64,000 nt of DNA from Patiria pectinifera (taxonomy: Eukaryota > Echinodermata > Asteroidea > Valvatida > Asterinidae), in assembly GCA_029964075.1 (NCBI GenBank), contig CM057140.1, positions 7,954,643 through 8,018,642 of the forward strand, given 5' to 3'. Position numbers and translations under genes: made by a program. Shown here in pieces: positions 13,133-60,587 of the stretch. The number at the start of each line of letters is the position of its first letter. Positions within the stretch are counted from its first letter, which is position 1. Under the pieces are notes generated by a model. It worked only from the letters and a program-made list of their open reading frames with translations, was not told where the DNA came from and did not search any database.

Positions 13133-34936
<21,804 letters not shown>

Positions 34937-37320: not shown

Positions 37321-37683
37321 GGTAAAGGAGAGACTTTTAATGACAAAATCCAGAAAAGTCCAAACGCACGTTGATACCGCGAAAAAAGACGCGGCACAGA
37401 GGGCGCTATCACCACTACTGGCGCTGGGGGTGCATAAATATTTTGAAGGTTGGGGGGGGGGGGGAACTGAAGGCACTAATGATACACATTTCTGTTCAAA
37501 AAAAGATTTTAAATGGGAGCACCTGGGGGCATGGACTTTCGGGGGTGGGGGTGGGGGAGGTGTGTGCATCCGTGGCCCATCGTAGCAAAGATGGTAGATG
37601 GGATAGCCTTGGTCAAGGCGCTAAATGTTATTCATCCCGGCCGTGGCGCGTAAACGATACCCTCGCTATGGCCATGCATTATG

Positions 37684-38234
37684 CAGTGCATTAAAAATAC
37701 AGCGCGAACAGCGACCTCATGCGGCCACCATTTCTATGCAAATTACTTGGACCCAATATCGCGCCTTGGTTCAATCGTCGGCAAAAGCTTATTTTTTTCT
37801 TAATTTTGCGCTGGATTCTAGCGCACGACCTCGTATGCGAATACAGATAAGTGTACGCGGGGCTGATAATTATGTGGAGTGTCCAATCACACCTTGGTAA
37901 ATCCGGACGTCATCAAATTGTTTGCAGCTAGCTATTCGCCTTTTGCGGAAGTGACAGGAACCACAGTTTTGTGCATTGGTGCCGTGTGCAGAGACACATA
38001 ACGTGTACGTGTACATGTATGGATTATGTACATGTACATGTACGGTGCCACGTTTTACTAAGCAAGTTTCCCCGCAACGATCGACCAATAAGAAAACGAC
38101 ATTTAACATAATGAGCACCACCCCCAAAACCTCACATGGACGATTGAACCAAGGCGCTATATTGGGTCCAACTGATTTGCGTAAAAATAGTGGCCGCGTG
38201 AGGTCGCTGTTCGCGCTGTATTTTTAATGCACTG
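37684..38234. mobile_element. Nested inverted-repeat element inside the 4.66-kb element
   Basis: CAGTGCATTAAAAATACAGC at the left is mirrored by GCTGTATTTTTAATGCACTG at the right; arms of ~95 bp stay about 90% alike through TTGGACCCAATAT and GCGCCTTGGTTCAAT. Target duplication not clear. Confidence 0.85.
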
Positions 38235-38250
38235 TACTGCATGCATAGGG

Positions 38251-41200
38251 GTGCAGACCAGTAAATCGGTCCGAAATTGCCTGCGCCGGCCAAATCACGA
38301 TTTGCATGCCCTCAAAATCTTCGGTATTTGAGCATGCTGTGGGCCATGAACTTGAGGGTTTGTTAAAAATATGGATGGAAACCGTGCACAGGACTTGGAG
38401 CTTGCAGTTCTGTGTAATTTTGATGTAATTTGGACCCTAAAAGCGCTCTACTTTGCAATGGAGTGTAGGCATCGTTTTTCAAAATGGCGATGGGCTTCAG
38501 GACTATTTTCAGGGGTGATCGTCTTCAGATGGAAATTTCTCCTAAAAGTCATCAGTTGACCCCCCGTAAATTGAACAGAAATTGAAAGATGATGAAATAA
38601 GCTTTAATTTGATGTGTGTCTCGAACACCTTGGAGAGTTGTGAGTATTTTTCCCGAATTTTTGAAGTTGGAGCATTTACCATTGGGGTCTATGGAAGTTT
38701 ATTTACTGGTCTGCTACCTGTAGTTTCAAAATGGCGTCTTCCACCGTTTGTTGTCAAAATGTTTGCGGAGTGGTTTTTTTCAGGGGGCGGAACCTGGGGG
38801 CAGCGTTTCAAAAGGGGTCACCAATGGCGGTTCCGCAACAAATGCGCCCAAAATCTGAATAGGGCCGATGGACCGTCCTCCGAGCTCAGGAATTTCGAGC
38901 GAAAAAGGGGGGGGGGGTAATTTTGGGTCGGAAGGCGCAAACACTCAATTCACGCCCGTTGGGGGCGCCCTACAGTAAGGTAGCCGCAAACAGAGGGCTT
39001 GTTTTCAGGCCAGAAATCGCAGTCAGAGATTTTTTTCTCGCAATTTTTTGATGAAATATGAGTCATCCATCCTTCCTCGCGCCGTACAAGTGGTTTGGAG
39101 AAATTTTTCAAAACCTCGCTTCTCTGTAGTTTCAAAATGGCGTCTTCCACCGTTTGTTGTCAAAATGTTTGCGGAGTGGTTTTTTTTTCAGGGGGGCGGA
39201 ACCTGGGGGGGGGGGGCAGCGTTTCAAAAGGGGTCACCAATGGCGGTTCCGCAACAAATGCGCCCAAAATCTGAATAGGGCCGATGGACCGTCCTCCGAT
39301 CACAGGAATTTCGAGCGAACAAGGGGGTAATTTGGGGTCGGAAGGAGCAAAACTCAATTCACGCCCGTTGGGGGCGCCCTACAGTAAGGTAGCCGCAAAC
39401 AGAGGGCTTGTTTTCAGGCCAGAAATCGCAGTCAGAGATTTTTTTCGCAATTTTTGATGAAATATGAGTCATCCATCCTTCCTCGCGCCGTACAAGTGGT
39501 TTGGAGAAATTTTTCAAAACCTCGCTTCTCTATAGGGTGCAGACCAGTAAATCGGTCCGAAATTGCCTGCGCCGGCCAAATCACGATTTGCATGCCCTCA
39601 AAATCTTCGGTATTTGAGCATGCTGTGGGCCATGAACTTGAGGGTTTGTTAAAAATATGGATGGAAACCGTGCACAGGACTTGGAGCTTGCAGTTCTGTG
39701 TAATTTTGATGTAATTTGGACCCTAAAAGCGCTCTACTTTGCAATGGAGTGTAGGCATCGTTTTTCAAAATGGCGATGGGCTTCAGGACTATTTTCAGGG
39801 GTGATCGTCTTCAGATGGAAATTTCTCCTAAAAGTCATCAGTTGACCCCCCGTAAATTGAACAGAAATTGAAAGATGATGAAATAAGCTTTAATTTGATG
39901 TGTGTCTCGAACACCTTGGAGAGTTGTGAGTATTTTTCCCGAATTTTTGAAGTTGGAGCATTTACCATTGGGGTCTATGGAAGTTTATTTACTGGTCTGC
40001 TACCTGTAGTTTCAAAATGGCGTCTTCCACCGTTTGTTGTCAAAATGTTTGCGGAGTGGTTTTTTCAGGGGCGGAACCTGGGGGCAGCGTTTCAAAAGGG
40101 GTCACCAATGGCGGTTCCGCAACAAATGCGCCCAAAATCTGAATAGGGCCGATGGACCGTCCTCCGATCACAGGAATTTCGAGCGAACAAGGGGAGGGGG
40201 TCATTTAGGGGAAGAATGGAGAAAACGGTCGATGCCGGCCCATTGGGGGCGCCCTACAGTAAGGTAGCCGCAAACAGAGGGCTTGTTTTCAGGCCAGAAA
40301 TCGCAGTCAGAGATTTTTTTCTCGCAATTTTTTGATGAAATATGAGTCATCCATCCTTCCTCGCGCCGTACAAGTGGTTTGGAGAAATTTTTCAAAACCT
40401 CGCTTCTCTGTAGTTTCAAAATGGCGTCTTCCACCGTTTGTTGTCAAAATGTTTGCGGAGTGGTTTTTTTTCAGGGGGGCGGAACCTGGGGGGGGGGCAG
40501 CGTTTCAAAAGGGGTCACCAATGGCGGTTCCGCAACAAATGCGCCCAAAATCTGAATAGGGCCGATGGACCGTCCTCCGATCACAGGAATTTCGAGCGAA
40601 CAAATTGGGGGGTAATTTGGGGTCGGAAGGAGCAAAAACTCAATTCACGCCCGTTGGGGGCGCCCTACAGTAAGGTAGCCGCAAACAGAGGGCTTGTTTT
40701 CAGGCCAGAAATCGCAGTCAGAGATTTTTTTCTCGCAATTTTTTGATGAAATATGAGTCATCCATCCTTCCTCGCGCCGTACAAGTGGTTTGGAGAAATT
40801 TTTCAAAACCTCGCTTCTCTATAGGGTGCAGACCAGTAAATCGGTCCGAAATTGCCTGCGCCGGCCAAATCACGATTTGCATGCCCTCAAAATCTTCGGT
40901 ATTTGAGCATGCTGTGGGCCATGAACTTGAGGGTTTGTTAAAAATATGGATGGAAACCGTGCACAGGACTTGGAGCTTGCAGTTCTGTGTAATTTTGATG
41001 TAATTTGGACCCTAAAAGCGCTCTACTTTGCAATGGAGTGTAGGCATCGTTTTTCAAAATGGCGATGGGCTTCAGGACTATTTTCAGGGGTGATCGTCTT
41101 CAGATGGAAATTTCTCCTAAAAGTCATCAGTTGACCCCCCGTAAATTGAACAGAAATTGAAAGATGATGAAAGAAGCTTTAATTTGATGTGTGTCTCGAA

Positions 41201-42185
41201 CACCTTGGAGAGTTGTGAGTATTTTCCCGAATTTTTGAAGTTGGAGCATTTACCATTGGGGTCTATGGAAGTTTATTTACTGGTCTGCTACCTGTAGTTT
41301 CAAAATGGCGTCTTCCACCGTTTGTTGTCAAAATGTTTGCGGAGTGGTTTTTTTTTCAGGGGGGCGGAACCTGGGGGGGGGGGGGCAGCGTTTCAAAAGG
41401 GGTCACCAATGGCGGTTCCGCAACAAATGCGCCCAAAATCTGAATAGGGCCGATGGACCGTCCTCCGATCACAGGAATTTCGAGCGAACAAGGGGGGGGG
41501 GGGTAATTTGGGGTCGGAAGGAGCAAAAACTCAATTCACGCCCGTTGGGGGCGCCCTACAGTAAGGTAGCCGCAAACAGAGGGCTTGTTTTCAGGCCAGA
41601 AATCGCAGTCAGAGATTTTTTTCTCGCAATTTTTTGATGAAATATGAGTCATCCATCCTTCCTCGCGCCGTACAAGTGGTTTGGAGAAATTTTTCAAAAC
41701 CTCGCTTCTCTATAGGGTGCAGACCAGTAAATCGGTCCGAAATTGCCTGCGCCGGCCAAATCACGATTTGCATGCCCTCAAAATCTTCGGTATTTGAGCA
41801 TGCTGTGGGCCATGAACTTGAGGGTTTGTTAAAAATATGGATGGAAACCGTGCACAGGACTTGGAGCTTGCAGTTCTGTGTAATTTTGATGTAATTTGGA
41901 CCCTAAAAGCGCTCTACTTTGCAATGGAGTGTAGGCATCGTTTTTCAAAATGGCGATGGGCTTCAGGACTATTTTCAGGGGTGATCGTCTTCAGATGGAA
42001 ATTTCTCCTAAAAGTCATCAGTTGACCCCCCGTAAATTGAACAGAAATTGAAAGATGATGAAATAAGCTTTAATTTGATGTGTGTCTCGAACACCTTGGA
42101 GAGTTGTGAGTATTTTTCCCGAATTTTTGAAGTTGGAGCATTTACCATTGGGGTCTATGGAAGTTTATTTACTGGTCTGCTACCA
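38251..42185. repeat. Higher-order tandem array (A-B-B)(A-B-B)(A-B)(A)
   Basis: Period of the full unit is 1286 and 1289 bp; the third unit lacks one B (891 bp). The last A stops at CTGGTCTGCTACC exactly where the element's right arm begins. Confidence 0.95.
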
Positions 42186-42287
42186 TAGCGCTAGACATTA
42201 TGACTGCATGCATGACTGCGCTACGGCCGGATAAAAAACAACTAGCGCCTTGACCAAGGCTATAGATGGGAAAGATCGGACACTTAG

Positions 42288-42774
42288 CAACCTCGTCCCC
42301 ACTGTTACTTTATTTCCAACAGCGTTTCCAATAGTAAACCCTGGATAGGATACTGCAATTGGCTAGTAATGGATTTTTATCGTGTACTTGGTGCTATATA
42401 TTCACAACGTGCAGTACGTGTTTTCGCGATCATTCGTCCACGCCTGCTCGAAAATACTAATTTCCTTTCCAATTTGCTCATATTAATATGAAATATGATA
42501 CTGCATGTTGTCTCGATAAGATCGTTACAGTTTGATTTCAAAAATCGTGTTTTCGTAACTCATGCCGTGCTCGCGCTGCTACGAATTGACTCTGTTTTTA
42601 CCCCAGACACCGCATACAAAAACAAACGCTTATGTGTAAAGCATGTCCAGGCACCAGACTGTTCCTCATTTGCATACGTGTGCAAAAATCTTGCACATGC
42701 AAATGATCCAATACCAGGGTGAGAGAGCAGGTAGTGGTGGGCGCGTACTGCTCGACACCCTGGGGACGAGGTTG
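42288..42774. mobile_element. CAACCTCGTCCCCAG miniature element, copy 1
   Basis: Ends CAACCTCGTCCCCA / TGGGGACGAGGTTG, flanked by GACACTTAG and GACACTCAG (9 bp, one mismatch). Lies 16 bp beyond the 4.66-kb element. A fuller relative lies at 59534-60533. Confidence 0.85.
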
Positions 42775-43052
42775 GACACTCAGCTGAAAAAATATGAAAA
42801 GTAGCTGCTCATGGGGAAGGGCGCCACGGCCGCCACTACGTTCCAGGTAGGTAAAAAGAACATTTGCTCCAGTCACTCCACGCGATAACGTAGTTGTACA
42901 TAGCCACTGAGTATTTTTCTTTTGGAGAAAAGAATCTCCAATCTGGAGAAAAGGATCCCCCATAGTGAACAAATTCAATGCTGATGCCAGAAGTCGGTTG
43001 TTTGTTTCTGTCATTTATCCTAACCTGTCATACATCATTATTAATAATGAAG

Positions 43053-53628: not shown

Positions 53629-54011
53629 ATCGCAACCATAGACATAAAGAACCTATAGACGGACAACAGGGGGCGCAAGACCGTAATTTCAGTGAAGCCG
53701 CCATTTTTAAAAACCATGGGCAAACTTGTTCGACGCGGTCACACAGTACGCGGCTGTCTGGTGAGGTCCTCCAAGCAGAACGTCACAGTGATGGGTAAGT
53801 TGTAGTATTATTGCCTTTTATGACAGTAGAACAAACCTGACAATGTGTACATATCATGTATGATATACCTGGGCATTGAGCAAGGAAAAAAAGCAAGTAT
53901 TTTGGGAAAATTTCATTGGATATTTTGCAAATAAAAATTGATCCAGACGCCACTGTTCTGGCTGTCATGGTTGTGCACGATTCAATTGTAGCACATAATC
54001 ATCTCGGTGTC

Positions 54012-54999
54012 AGGTCAACTCGCCCCCTGGCCGACTCCCCCCCTAGCTGACTCCCGTCCCAGCCAACTCGCCCCCTGACCGACTCGCCCCCTTGAAAATT
54101 ATGAACCATACGGGGACATCGTAAAAAAAATTAAAATAGACAGTGGAGCACATTGCCCGGTGCCCCGGTCGCAACGTGAAACTTAATGGGGCCAAATTAT
54201 TCAAACGTCAGTTTGAAGGATTTCCGTAAACAAATGAAAAAAACTGTTGATCCTTTATAAGAAACTCAGATAACGAAGCTGATTGGCTGGACCCTCTGTG
54301 TTCCCCTCCACTGTCTATTTTTTTTTCACGATGTCCCCCTACGGTTAGCCCCATAAATGTGGCCTATTTACTGGACTGCCTCCGTAAACATAGGCCACAC
54401 ATCCACCATGTACAAAAATGTGTCGACGGAGCCAAATTTCGATTTTCACATTTGGGCTTACTTTGTAGGTTTTTTTCGCTTCAGAAGCATTCTCACCCTC
54501 TATATAGGCTAATCAGAAAGTGCTGCCTTTTTCAGATGTCCATTTTTCGTGAAATTTCCAGATTCATTTTTACACGTTTTCGTATCAAAATTTCAACATG
54601 AAATTTCACAAAAATTAGACATCTGAAAAAGGCAGCACTTTCTGATTAGCCTATATAGAGGGTGAGAATGCTTCTGAAGCAAAAAAACCCTACAAAGTAA
54701 GCCTAAACGTGAAAATCAAAATTTGGCTCCGTCGACACGTTTTTGTACATGGTGGATGTGTGGCCTATGTTTACGGAGGCAGTCCAGTAAATAGGCCACA
54801 TTTTGGGGCTACCCTACGGTGCATCATTTTCCAAGAGGGCGAGTCGGTTAGGAGGCGAGGGGGCGAGTCAGCTAGGGGGCGAGTCAGCCAGGGGGCGAGC
54901 TTGTAAGGGGCGAGTCGGTCAGGGGGAGAGTCGGGCAGAGGGCGAGCCAGTAAGGGGCGAGTCGGTAAGAGGCGAGTCGGTCAGGGGGCGAGTTGACCT
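54012..54999. mobile_element. Foldback element with GACTCGCCCCCTG arrays, inside the P-like element
   Basis: Ends AGGTCAACTCGCCCCCTG / CAGGGGGCGAGTTGACCT. Arrays of CGACTCGCCCCCTGA (54012-54095) are mirrored at 54836-54999. Next, ~225-bp arms (54340-54565 and 54599-54825), close to perfectly inverted, carry TGTCGACGGAGCC / GGCTCCGTCGACA and AGAAAGTGCTGCC / GGCAGCACTTTCT. Loop about 30 bp. Confidence 0.92.
54113..54339. mobile_element. Miniature element inserted in the left arm of the foldback
   Basis: GGGACATCGTAAAAAAAATT and its counterpart CACGATGTCCC, with AATAGACAGTGGAG / CTCCACTGTCTATT inside. It is present in the left arm only, so it arrived after the foldback formed. TACGG on both sides may be a target duplication. 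Confidence 0.8.
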
Positions 55000-55036
55000 A
55001 CAATCATCATCTCATAGTCCCAGTCACTCACTCACT

Positions 55037-55583
55037 CAGGCATGTCAGGAAAGAATGTTGTAATCTGACGCTACTTCAGCGGTTGTGTACAAAGGGTATG
55101 GAGAGTCTAGACAAATTTCTAAATATTTCCTAGCAAATTTGTGTTTCTCAGTCCCAGATTCATATCTTATCATCATTTTCGCTATTACTGACATTCATTG
55201 AGATAATATATGAAGAAAAAAGCAGCGTCAGGTTACAACATTCTTTTCCTCACGGAGTCATGGCAATGTTGAGCAGATTAATTTAAAACTTGCACAAATT
55301 TGCAAGAGTGGACCCTTTTTCTTTGTCAGGATTGTCAACAATTTGCATAACAGTCATTGGGAACTTAATAACAATGTCACAATGTGGCCAACCAGAACAT
55401 AGCAACTGCCAGAAGAGCATAGAATGATCCAAAGAATACAGCATTAGTGTATTCAAATTTTGTTGGAATTCTGTAAAGCTACATTGTATTTTAGGAGTGT
55501 GTCACATGAAACTTCTTGACTCTCTATAGATTTTGTGCACAACTGCTAAAGTAGCGTCAGGTCACATCATTCTTTCTGATCGC
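55037..55583. repeat. Inverted pair of AGCGTCAGGTnACA repeats
   Basis: AAAGAATGTTGTAATCTGAC, then GCTACTTCAGC at the left, mirrored by GCTAAAGTAGCGTCAGGTC at 55541; a third partial copy lies at 55228-55250. Possibly a further miniature element within the P-like element. Confidence 0.6.
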
Positions 55584-55863
55584 ACATAAACATTTTGAAT
55601 TTGCACAAGTTCTAAATTTGTGTTCAACACCATTAAAAGTCATTCATTCCTTTGCTACTTGCAGTCAAGTCTGAAGTGTGGACAGCTTTCAGCGACATTT
55701 TATTTTCCTATTCCGTGTTCATCCTCAACTTAGCTCTAATTTTGCAAGTGCCTATAATCATAGATATATATTACTGTGACCTACACCATGTAGCTTGATA
55801 TTTTTCTAATAATATAAGATCATTTTTAATAAACCTTTGTTTTCTCTTGTATTTGTTTTGCAG

Positions 55864-56312
55864 AATCTAAAGTGATGCACAATGCCTCGAACCTGTGTAG
55901 CATGGGGGTGTAAACAGCGTTATTCACAAGAATCAAAGGCGAATGGAATTACATTCAACTATATTCTGAAGGACCTCACCAGACGACACCAGTGGGTGCA
56001 TGCTATGCGTTAGGATGGCTACAATCCTTCTAGTCAAGATAGCCTCAGTCGAAGCACTTTGATCCCGAGTCTTTCAAAACAGGCGGTAAAACCAAAATTC
56101 TGAAGAGAAATGCTCTGCACACGTTGTTCGAATTTCCCAAACACCTTCAGCCTAGGCATCTTAAGGAGCGTCGAGTATTGAATGTTGCTGTAGGTCGTGA
56201 GACAGCAAATCCTCTTCTTGAACCCGACGAAGACCTGGATATGCGTAGAAAAATAGTGACAGCTGTCCAGAGTGATCATGGATTCTACACATTGCCATCA
56301 GAGCTCTATCAG
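55864..56312 (+). pseudogene. THAP-domain exon of P-like transposase, broken
   Basis: Acceptor TATTTGTTTTGCAG and donor CAG/GTCAGA bound the exon; ATG at 55882. Residues start MPRTCVAWGCKQRYSQ, then GITFNYI, RRHQWVHAMR: the C-x4-C start, aromatic core and Trp of a THAP zinc finger (C2CH, DNA binding). TAG at 56011 interrupts; after one frame change SKHFDPESF and NALHTLFEFP follow, matching the CxxHF and AVPTIF motifs. The third zinc ligand (Cys before SKHF) and the Pro of AVPTIF are altered. A basic/acidic region (LKERRVLNVAVGRETANP) completes the exon. THAP proteins include both P transposases and host factors; the surrounding TIRs favour transposase. Confidence 0.82.
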
Positions 56313-56439
56313 GTCAGAAACTATTTTTTTAAACCTTGGTCTTGGAGTTAGACAAGGTACTGAATTTGGCAAAGCGTTTTGCTGAAATTGTGTATTATGA
56401 AAAAATACAGGTTGCAGTAAGTTTTATGGTATATTTATT

Positions 56440-57320
56440 GAAGTTAATGCTTTCATTGTGTATAGTTGTACATACAATTTTACAGTTTGTGTTTGTACCC
56501 TTCTGTCTTTTCACAATTATATTTATTCCAAGAAAATTTTAATACCACAATTTTACCTCCAGTTTATTTTTTTAATGTATATCAAATGAACAGCTTATTA
56601 ATTTTGTACAAAACTGCAAAGTGTAATTAAGAAATTGTACTTGTATGAGCAAGTGTATACAATGTTAGCATTCATTTGTGTTAATATATTGTAGATTTCT
56701 ATTTATTGGACGCTCAAGTGCAAAATGGAATTAAGAACTTGTACTTGTTTATTAGAATTATTTTGTGTTTTGTACCGGGGTAAATTTCTATTTTTGTGGA
56801 CACTCATGTGTATTCACATTCTCAAATGCACATAATCAGCAAACGGATCATATGAATGGGAAAAAATAAACGTAAACAAACAACTTTGCATATTTATTTT
56901 AATTGATATTTTTGCTGTGTATAATTGTACACTGACATTTTACAATCTGTGTGTGTACCCTTTTATCTTTTCAGAATCATACTTATTTATTTGAAAATTT
57001 ATTTCCACAGTTTTACCTCCATTTGTTTTTACAAAGCCAATATTTATTTGAAAACACAAAATGAAAAGGTTGTTGATCTTGTGTGAATAATATGCAAGTG
57101 GAGTTACATTAATACTCATTACATCCATTAATTGTGTATTGTGCTCATTGCACAATTCTCAAACTAGTTACATTTGTACATGTATACCTTTGAGTTTCCA
57201 AAGATGTTTTAGTATTCATGAATGGAACAAGGTTAACCTAAACATTGAACATAATAGATTTATTTTAGTTTATTTTTTTTTTACCGTGTATATATTTGTA
57301 CGCAGATAAGACAGATGTTG
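56440..57320. repeat. AT-rich imperfect tandem duplication, ~460 bp period
   Basis: TGTGTATAGTTGTACATACA, followed by a TGTGTACCCTT block and TTTTACCTCC, at about 56457 and again at 56916, with a third partial start near 57283. Inside the P-like element, where transposase coding would be expected. Confidence 0.7.
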
Positions 57321-59195
57321 TACAAAATTTATGGAAATTATAGCCTATATCAAATTTATCCTTCTATGAATATTGCTTTGTTTGATTTCAATTGTTACAA
57401 ATAAATTGAAATTTATTTTGAAAGCTAATTGTGTACAAATAATACATTGTATCACTTACAACCAGCATGGCAGCTATAGTGGACATGCTGTATATGAACA
57501 GGCCTTCCTTTTTCATTAATACCTAGGTACTTGTACATCACATCTTTGGCTCTCAATTTTTCTTTCATATAAAGTTATTTAATAAAAATAACTATAAATC
57601 AGAGATGAGTCTCCAATTAGATCCAAGACATCATGACGTCACGCTTTGTTTACATGTGCGCTTTCCTATTACGTCCCAGCTGGCTCAAATAGGGAAGCAT
57701 ACATGTATTTAACAGAGCGTGTCGTCATTATATTTTAGGTCTATTGAAATGATGAACAGAATCTGTGGAGAACACATGACAAGCAGACCCCACTTTTTGA
57801 AGTAACTGGAGGAATCATGGCTGACAGTAGTAGGCATATAGGTGGGGTGGGCGTGGACATTGGCTGATGTAGCTCCCTGACCTACAATACATGTACATGT
57901 ATGTTCTAGATCGCTTGAAAGCTCAATGGTTCTGGACTAGTGCTGAATAGTAACACGTGACGTAGCAACCAGGCGCAGATCCATATGGAGGGTTTGGGGG
58001 TCAGAAACACCGCCCCCCCTTCTTTGACTGGGCTCCCTTAGTAATAATAAAAAAAATAACATGTGCCTGATGGGCCCGAACCCCCCCCCCCCCTAAAAAA
58101 AATCACCATCCTGGATCTCCCCCCGGCAACCGATTAAAACGTTTTTTGGTGTAATGAATTGTTACCATGACAACTGACACATAAATATGGCTCAAATACT
58201 CTCTTTCCTAGGCCTAGTAGGGTTTTCCTTTTATAGTGAGCCACAACACAGCACATGCTTTTCTGATTAGCTATGACTATGTGCGAGGAAAAGTTGAAAG
58301 AAAAATTGAAATCAAGAGTTGTTCCACTTGAAAGTCCTACCTGAAGTTACCTGGTTAATATTATCCAGCATGTCCAGGGAAATTAAATTCTGTTTCTATA
58401 GTAGGGCATATCCTGTAAATTTCAGGCGAAATTTGCAGATTCATCATGTTCATTTGCTGATATTTTACTGATGTACACTCGACCTTTTATTGATTTCCCT
58501 TGTTTTTAGACCCATTTTATACTAACATGATTAACCAAACAAGTATCTGCCGTAGTCAATATCAAGTGAAACAAACAGTCCCGATTTCGATTTCCTCAAA
58601 GTCAAAAGACAACTGACCTCGCACCATATACGCGTACCGCACAAACACATAACATTATGACAACTCACACGACTTACGTGTCAGAAATGCATGACCAACG
58701 CAGCACCCAGCGCGGCGTGCCGCGTTGCGGCGGTTGTAGACCTTATTAATTTATTTTGAAATTACACACACACAAATACATAGCTGTACATCATTATGAA
58801 GTCAACTTTTCAAAGGGTTTTCAGTCACCATCAATGCGTTTTCAACCGAAATTGTCGATTTGTATCATTCCTTCCGATGTTATTCCATAGAGTCATGCAC
58901 ATTTATTCAAAACTCCCGCCCATGGTTTCATACCTAGTCGGGCGCCGTCAAAATTACGGTACCCTGACGTTGATTTCCATAGGCGCTGTCCGTCTATAGG
59001 TTCTTTATGTCTATGATCGCAACGCAACGCTCATGGCTGACAAAGTGACATGCAAGTAATTTACTAAAGTTATGACATGTGATGCATGATGGAGTACGGA
59101 ACCTGTCGGAGTGTGTACGAAAACCCGACCTGGTTACATATTGAATATCTATGCCCTGTACGTGAATACTCGCTTTAAACAGCAAAAACGGCCTC

Positions 59196-59351: not shown

Positions 59352-59759
59352 AAATAATATCTGCCAAATTTCGTTGGCGATTTACGAATTATGTAGTAGA
59401 TGGATCGGAATTCAACAGGCCCCTATGACAATTAAAGGGACACTGGGTCCTGGAACAGCCCAATTGGGATACAAAACGCGCTTTGAACGAGATGATGTTA
59501 ATCGGAAAGAACATTTAAAAATAAGATATAAACCAACCTCGTCCCCAGTGCTTACTTTATTTCCAACCTCGTTTCCAATAGTAAGCCCTGGATAGGAAAC
59601 TTTCTTCCTGTATCCTGATTCGATACCGCAATTGGCTTGAAATGGATTTATCGTGTAATAGCTTGGTGTTGTTATTCACAACGCCTTCTCGAAAATATTA
59701 ATTTCCTTTCCAATTTGTTAATATTAATATGAAATGTGATACTGCATGTTGTCTCGTTA

Positions 59760-60275
59760 AAGGGAATATACATCATTTGCTTTTGCTGTAATTTTCAGAA
59801 ATGGATGGAATTGGGGGGTTGGAAATATATAGCAAATATAGTTACGCTGACTTTTTTGAGGTTTTGGGTTCGAAAATGCTATAAAAACAAAGAAAAACAA
59901 TCATTTTCCTGTAGTCTGGTTCCCTGACTCCATATAAGAAGAAACAGAGCAGTGTACATACATTGGGGAATTGTAAGGTCAGGGAACCAGTCTAGCTGGC
60001 TTGTACTCGTTCATAGGTGTGTAATCGATTGCAAACAAGTGCGATGGTCAATTGGGGCCAGTATTTGAAAAAAAGCCAGTTTTTTCCAACGCTGGTCGGC
60101 CGACCAGCATTTGAAATTGATACAAAAATACCACTTTTCTTGAAAATGACAGTATACCAGGTGCCATGATTTTACAGGATGCTTTACACTGTCATTCACT
60201 AAACGTCCAGCAAGGTATTTCAAAATGATTTGGTAGTTTTATTTTTTGATGTTTGCAAATGTTGTATTTTCCCTT
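59760..60275. mobile_element. Second-level insertion with TA target
   Basis: AAGGGAATATACATCATTTG mirrored by CAAATGTTGTATTTTCCCTT, flanked by TA on both sides. Copy 1 shows the empty site (CTCGATAAGATCG), which proves insertion. A TA target suggests a Tc1/mariner-like or PIF-like miniature element. Confidence 0.9.
59912..59994. mobile_element. Third-level 83-bp hairpin element
   Basis: TAGTCTGGTTCCCTGAC mirrored by GTCAGGGAACCAGTCTA inside the second-level insertion. Confidence 0.75.
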
Positions 60276-60587
60276 TAAGATCGTAACAGTTTAATTAAAA
60301 TAAAATCGTGTTTTCGTAACTCACGCCATGCTCGCGCTGCGACGAATTGATTCTGTTTTTACCCCAGACACCGCATACAAAAACAAACGCAAATGTAACG
60401 CACAGGTAGGCACCAGACTACTCCTCATTTGCATTCGTGTTCAAAAATCTTGCACATGCAAATGATCCAATACCAGGGTGAGAGAGCAGGTAGTGGTGGG
60501 CGCGTACTGCTCGACATCCTGGGGACGAGGTTGGATATAAACATCCACCCAACTATCCTTTAACAACGGGGCGTTTTGTGTTATTAA

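Follow-up and report, generated by a model that had tools for sequence, protein, structure and literature searches.

A tandem A/B array nested in an older inverted-repeat element of the sea star Patiria pectinifera belongs to a dispersed family

A 64-kb stretch of the Patiria pectinifera genome (C12:7954643-8018642, on GenBank contig CM057140.1 of assembly GCA_029964075.1; hereafter the window) contains a tandem array of two repeat units, A and B, arranged in the order A-B-B-A-B-B-A-B-A and lying between the ends of an element with long terminal inverted repeats (TIRs). We read this locus as two nested mobile elements, of which the second, a member of a dispersed A-(B)n-A family, entered the right arm of the older, framing one. 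Leaving aside the route by which the array moved, we assign this reading a probability of roughly 80%; that there was a nested insertion and that the A-Bn-A family is mobile we regard as nearly certain. The perfect 20-bp TIR of the frame, TAGCCTTGGTCAAGGCGCTA, is found at 37604-37623 with an inverted copy at the far end, and an exact 9-bp duplication flanks the pair, as stated in a preliminary description of the window. In the underlying scan for perfect inverted repeats of at least 16 bp, simulated sequences yielded 0-1 such repeats each (n=20). Two other inverted-repeat pairs of the window are also flanked by duplications, of 8 bp (53637/59015) and 9 bp (59533/60534). The genome searched comprises 613.5 Mb in 1020 contigs.

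The frame belongs to a family of elements of ~720 bp with inverted arms of ~176-184 bp and 9-bp target site duplications. A genome search returned 814 candidates, and 40 copies were scored, namely the window copy and 39 others, some of them partial, with 84-93% identity. Six of these 39 sister copies, all among the better matches, were fetched. In each of the six the right arm continues unbroken through the position of the array (GCATGCATAGCGC), and the alignments contain exact 9-bp duplications in five. Since all six sisters are uninterrupted, the array has inserted into an older element that is itself ordinary. The same sister copies, not the alignment of the two arms, settle the insertion point. 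Arm alignment was dropped as a proof in its own right, because the cut at CATAG is equalled or bettered by 467 of 21,250 cut pairs. A rival cut at an 11-bp direct repeat, ACTGCATGCAT, was also rejected (1678 of 21,250 cut pairs score as well, and the 11-mer is part of the framing element), as was the idea that the inner foldback at 37666-38248 is a separate nested element, for which no duplication of its own was seen and which is contained in all six sisters. The target duplications of the frame fall within the 8-11 bp of Mutator-like elements (MULEs), and its arms are long, a feature that is not unique to MULEs. Duplications of 9 bp and long TIRs are found in MULEs too (PMC6446971); no transposase was seen in the frame, for which no search aimed at autonomous relatives was made, and the likeness rests on duplication and arm length. 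The one open reading frame (ORF) of the spacer that was scanned (37780..38138) had no Pfam match.

The order of the units and the near-identity of their copies were correctly described beforehand. In the window, A copies differ pairwise by 0-1 substitutions in ~469 bp and B copies by 2-24. The B copies form two classes by homopolymer length (B1 and B3 versus B2, B4 and B5), and the higher-order pattern is therefore real. A simple assembly duplication is unlikely, because each of the five B copies can be told from the others and many contigs show the same structure. Two exact probes from the divergent ~48-bp patch of B3 matched none of the 108 other B copies compared. Contrary to the preliminary description, the last A does not end exactly at the right arm: it stops with ...GCTACC at 42184, and the following ATAG (42185-42188) is the target duplication of the array (Table 1). 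Elsewhere in the window there is no match to A or B at E 0.001. Homology between A and B is unsupported, with 82 of 300 shuffles scoring as well. A coding function of the array was likewise rejected (two ORFs scanned without Pfam match, one ORF without homologous protein at E 0.001), as was a ribozyme of the retrozyme type in A or B, since Rfam gave only matches far below the gathering score in 38200-40450. The sequence CAAAATGGCG, which we take to resemble a YY1-type site, is present in nine copies in the array (38249-42184), all in a single orientation, and nowhere else in the window.

Table 1. Positions of the array, its units and the element around it, in window coordinates
Feature	Position	Strand	Basis
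Framing element, 9-bp target site duplication, left copy, TAGATGGGA	37595..37603	.	exact repeat
Framing element, left arm (TIR), first 20 bp perfect	37604..37779	+	arm alignment
Framing element, spacer	37780..38138	+	sequence
Framing element, right arm, inner part, broken at CATAG	38139..38248	+	strict alignment end at 38248; sister copies
Array, 4-bp target site duplication ATAG, left copy	38245..38248	.	sister comparison, duplication count
Mobile array A-B-B-A-B-B-A-B-A, 3936 bp	38249..42184	+	sequence, sister comparison
A1, 470-bp TIR module, ends GGGTGCAGACCAGTAAAT ... ATTTACTGGTCTGCTACC	38249..38718	+	
B1	38719..39124	+	
B2, TATA at end before A	39125..39534	+	
A2	39535..40004	+	
B3, with ~48-bp divergent patch	40005..40408	+	
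B4	40409..40823	+	
A3, 1 substitution and 1 gap versus A1 and A2	40824..41292	+	
B5	41293..41714	+	
A4, no substitution versus A1	41715..42184	+	
Array, 4-bp target site duplication ATAG, right copy	42185..42188	.	
Framing element, right arm, outer part, 20-bp perfect TIR at 42243-42262	42185..42262	+	alignment, sister copies
Framing element, 9-bp target site duplication, right copy, TAGATGGGA	42263..42271	.	exact repeat

Similar arrays are dispersed through the genome. The forms found include solo A, A-B-A, A-BB-A and arrays of up to 28 kb, in which A stands at both ends, in the same orientation, around one or more tandem B. Frames without an array, which the preliminary description had suggested looking for, exist as well. 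A genome search with A gave matches on many contigs, of which only the best were scored; to avoid best-match bias, contig C1 was chosen and its exact A left ends were listed in full. C1 has 79 of them in 54 clusters, 26 with B directly before; within clusters, most spacings equal the length of A plus an integral number of B units. For the 53 clusters that have a start, this start was fetched, and so was the last A of the 19 multi-A clusters; one startless cluster was excluded. An exact 4-bp duplication lies just outside the A ends in 15 of the 18 C1 arrays with both ends fetched, and in 34 of 38 distinct arrays overall, whereas mismatched flanks agree in 66 of 1406 pairings. The 34 comprise 31 identified by script and three (C253, L022, L026) in which the script had taken the end of a nearby old A and for which the right ends give ATAA, TTGT and TTAC, respectively; L023 and L024 coincide with the C1 arrays L063 and L066, so that each was counted once, and L020 was excluded from the 38. 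In a final test, all five late-fetched arrays, chosen for their many B-to-A junctions, proved to have the 4-bp duplication, and the left end of a very long array on C10, fetched in the same test, also fits. The longest arrays, C253:1988-24112 (22.1 kb) and C10:7156353-7184608 (28.3 kb, with ~7.6 kb of its interior known from listed B-B junctions only), have the length of satellite arrays. Patterns of A, B and the frame had 0 matches in prokaryote and viral collections, one of these searches having been made with A only.

One duplicated site on C1 (~10.58 and ~10.44 Mb) is occupied by both forms. L081/L102 hold A-BBB-A and L082 holds solo A, in matching flanks and with the same CGAA duplication. 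This suggests that exchange between A copies turned one of the two forms into the other, whichever came first. Other C1 pairs with like flanks are L070/L071, L054/L055, L038/L087 and L039/L086; such pairing implies that C1 holds duplications or leftover haplotype copies.

Module A is 470 bp long, with ends of the form GGGT...TACC (pattern GGG(T)TGCAGACCAGTAAAT) and a TIR of 14 bp if perfect or 18 bp if imperfect, equalled by none of 5000 shuffles. Its exact left end occurs 1472 times in the genome, compared to 0 for the reversed control. There is no sign that the left part of A was derived from the interior of the frame, as had been proposed. A has the features of a miniature inverted-repeat transposable element (MITE), being a short, non-coding and high-copy sequence with a TIR and with a duplication of fixed length on solo copies; the lack of Pfam matches in the two array ORFs scanned is consistent with its non-coding nature. 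There are 35 single-A sites on C1, a count that includes duplicated copies of one site, two duplicated site pairs being counted twice. The right end is recognisable in 28 of them, and 21 of these 28 carry an exact 4-bp duplication; among the other seven, L061 continues into B sequence. Nine relatives of A with 70-88% identity are without B and have still recognisable inverted ends (L011, L022, L026 twice, L054, L055, L060, L067 and L077, where L054 and L055 are copies of one site and the five C1 relatives were picked through the exact left end). In five of the nine the right end reads GGTTGCAGACC inward. Divergence from the window A on C1 is at most 4.5% for array copies and reaches 22% for single copies (array C5a reaches 5.5%), a contrast against which it must be held that selection by exact left end favours young A copies. 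From this divergence, A seems to be older than its link with B. A repeat at 54.4 kb of the window was rejected as a relative of A, with similarity in the TIR motif and no wider match. At L021 (C4, ~15.17 Mb) an A-A tandem with TGTA between the copies is followed by BB-A-BB-A, which looks like one A inserted at TGTA beside another.

Unit B is a tandem unit of ~406 bp. The exact B-to-A junction was counted 445 times genome-wide and the exact B-B junction 327 times, and on C1 each of the 27 exact B-B junctions listed has A copies of the same array on both sides. The short motifs at the junctions were counted in distinct fetched loci, with repeats excluded. TATA is present at 75 of 76 B-to-A junctions and TGTA at 67 of 69 A-to-B junctions, while the B-B junction has TGTA in 52 of 62 cases, TATGTA in nine and TATA in one. 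A single 4-mer at junctions lacking A, against two around an A, is the pattern expected from insertion of A with its usual 4-bp duplication plus one later change, and it suggests that A entered tandem B in one founding event. TATGTA between two B copies might be an excision footprint of A, but TATGTA is also found between A and B.

The two ends of an array tend to carry similar A copies. Comparison of first with last A in 36 arrays (the 38 minus L014 and L085) gives a mean of 2.14 substitutions, against 7.11 for other pairings (0 of 5000 permutations), and in 18 arrays the two are identical. A stricter comparison draws on internal copies. It covers 12 arrays that have three or more A and for which both ends as well as internal copies were in hand; their first-last distances sum to 7, versus 30.4 for random same-array pairs (P 0.007), and eight of the 12 have identical ends. 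In L045 and L075 a middle A stands 10 and 15 substitutions, respectively, from two end copies that match exactly. That one template supplied both the first and the last A at insertion is rather probable.

Several observations weigh against parts of this reading, besides the selection of young A copies mentioned above. Four of the 38 arrays (L012, L040, L084, L085) have no exact duplication; L014 ends in a 50-bp A fragment, and L020, outside the 38, starts within a B fragment. Arrays were located via A, and an A-less array was detectable only in the list of B-B junctions. The 4-mers flanking internal A differ by one base (TATA and TGTA), which leaves the founding insertion unproven. As to the ends, L056, L057 and L073 lack the contrast between end and internal copies, and ends are unlike in L048 (21 substitutions), L081 (17), L040 (9) and C5a (7). 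For only 26 of 36 arrays is the A at the other end jointly nearest, and for 10 strictly nearest, because A haplotypes are few; subfamily structure thus partly confounds the likeness of the ends. A partial alternative is local homogenisation, which may contribute to this likeness. Pooled B distances are equal (2.75% within arrays, 2.81% between them), but B is tighter within than between in 13 of the 15 arrays having at least two B, and the nearest B lies in the same array for 45 of 109 copies, where shuffled labels give a mean of 22 and a maximum of 40. Finally, neither an autonomous partner nor a circle was seen, no search aimed at an autonomous partner having been made.

Of the readings, copying of both ends from one template agrees best with the data; it would occur in retrotransposition of the long terminal repeat (LTR) type or in insertion of a circle whose opening A is doubled. 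We infer that A, an old MITE-like DNA element, once entered tandem B at TGTA and that B afterwards spread as its passenger. By the circle route, recombination between two A copies would then release a circular (or tandem) A-Bn molecule and leave solo A behind. On opening at one A, the circle would insert with that A doubled, so that A comes to stand at both ends. Subsequently, the array would grow or shrink in place by unequal exchange, with the terminal A copies staying put. We put this DNA-circle route forward tentatively, rating it about equal to the LTR-type route and preferring it narrowly. More doubtful is the wider proposal that whole satellite arrays move as unit transposons in this animal, with the TIR module acting as an LTR-like terminal direct repeat, A-Bn circles freed by exchange between A copies re-inserting at other sites with a doubled opening A and a 4-bp duplication, and B being an obligate passenger. 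Such units would resemble the translocatable units of bacterial insertion sequence (IS) elements, or would amount to a DNA-only counterpart of the LTR cycle.

In the LTR-type route, which is an equally tentative alternative, A takes the role of an LTR. A-(B)n-A would then be a non-autonomous LTR retrotransposon whose internal domains stand in tandem, similar to a terminal-repeat retrotransposon in miniature (TRIM); solo A would be a solo LTR and multi-A arrays tandem TRIMs. Direct terminal repeats, 4-bp duplications, end copies that are alike where internal A can differ, solo and array forms at one duplicated site and the fact that B is not seen outside A on C1 are all as expected for a TRIM. 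A known TRIM is biv-TRIM of bivalves (PMC6934838), which likewise has direct terminal repeats and a non-coding inner domain, forms solo terminal repeats as well as repeat-inner-repeat arrays (TDRx_I(x-1)) and is itself without an identifiable canonical primer site. However, the terminal repeat of 470 bp ends in GGGT...TACC, with the 4-bp duplication directly outside, and not in TG...CA. As for a primer site, no TGG occurs within 13 bases after A on either strand, read without comparison to a tRNA set, and by eye no purine tract was seen either in CGCTTCTCTATA, which precedes A, or in GAAACTACA on the opposite strand. Furthermore, A has an 18-bp TIR that is recognisable in the 70-88% relatives, the inner domain is a variable tandem (B)n, and the B-B junction acts like the empty site of an A insertion.

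Composite cut-and-paste, in which a transposase acting on a standing array pairs the left end of one A with the right end of a different A and mobilises whatever lies between, is unlikely, even though it accounts for several of the observations. Every product would be bounded by A and carry a 4-bp duplication, as 34 of 38 arrays do, and solo A would be the commonest product, in line with the 35 single-A sites on C1 versus 18 arrays with both ends fetched. Homogenised donors would give like ends without copying, and B is locally alike to some degree in 13 of 15 arrays, but agreement of first and last A above that of internal A is not predicted. The odds are poorer still for in-place conversion of a resident solo A by homologous recombination with A-B circles or other arrays. 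The matching flanks of L081/L102 and L082 favour it, and the end differences at that site are compatible with one crossover. Yet it leaves unlike ends unless the partners are alike, and most compared arrays have alike ends. Growth of the array within the framing element, or its capture by that element, which the preliminary description held from the array's position between TIRs with an intact 9-bp duplication, can practically be dismissed in view of the six uninterrupted sisters, the array's own duplication and the many A copies outside the frame.

Two nested mobile elements with a dispersed A-(B)n-A family thus remain our preferred reading, and it retains part of the earlier one. The idea that mobile elements seed satellite DNA stands insofar as a mobile element and a young higher-order array occur together and arrays are seeded here, but the carrier is not the TIR pair that had been singled out. 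A/B arrays outside that pair had been named as evidence to the contrary; they exist, yet themselves look mobile.

The remainder of the window holds further repeats. At 53637-59015, perfect 29-bp inverted repeats (CATAGACATAAAGAACCTATAGACGGACA) 5.4 kb apart are flanked by an 8-bp direct repeat (ATCGCAAC). This is another TIR element, presumably hAT-like by its duplication length, and it contains other repeats. A palindromic element at 54355-54803 has perfect arms of 64 and 63 bp, with a ~16-bp minisatellite inverted on both sides. Related repeat copies, with pieces 76-90% identical and CCAACCTCGTCCCCAG-type ends, are found near the right side of the framing element (42288-42776) and at 59534-60535, where the copy is flanked by a 9-bp direct repeat. 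An AT dinucleotide repeat spans ~460 bp (20730-21188). In a Pfam scan two ORFs of the window matched the secretin-family 7tm_2 domain, and apart from one tRNA the window has no Rfam match at or above the gathering score.

The literature includes papers on satellite arrays that arose from, or within, MITEs, foldback elements, Helitrons and LTR elements. MITEs with satellites, such as Xstir and miDNA4, resemble the present family in that TIR elements are tied to tandem repeats, and one of the published models assumes that an existing tandem repeat was captured (PMC12628747). There, the tandem repeat is inside the MITE or derived from it, whereas here whole TIR modules stand at both ends, co-oriented, and inside as well. 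The Tetris foldback element of Drosophila virilis combines long TIRs, 8-10 bp duplications and satellite-like arrays, much as the preliminary description pictured the frame, but its repeats are part of its own TIR, while the array described here is foreign to the frame (PMC4079207). Tandem transposon dimers and hobo arrays illustrate that tandem arrays of transposons can become satellites; among the routes proposed for them is insertion into a shared target duplication (McGurk and Barbash, summarised in PMC12628747). In contrast to hobo arrays, A alternates with B and the whole array has one 4-bp duplication. In the parts of this literature at hand, no family was found with a satellite array that is moved by a TIR module at each of its ends and bears target duplications.

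The spread of satellites between chromosomes has usually been argued from remnants, whereas in P. pectinifera insertion boundaries survive on arrays of ~1.3 to 28 kb. Each array can be read as an insertion, perhaps datable by comparing its terminal A copies with each other, followed by local growth recorded in internal A and B. In one genome, the seeding, growth and collapse of satellite arrays thereby become directly testable. Should one template indeed supply both ends without reverse transcription, an animal DNA element would here be using an unusual route of transposition.

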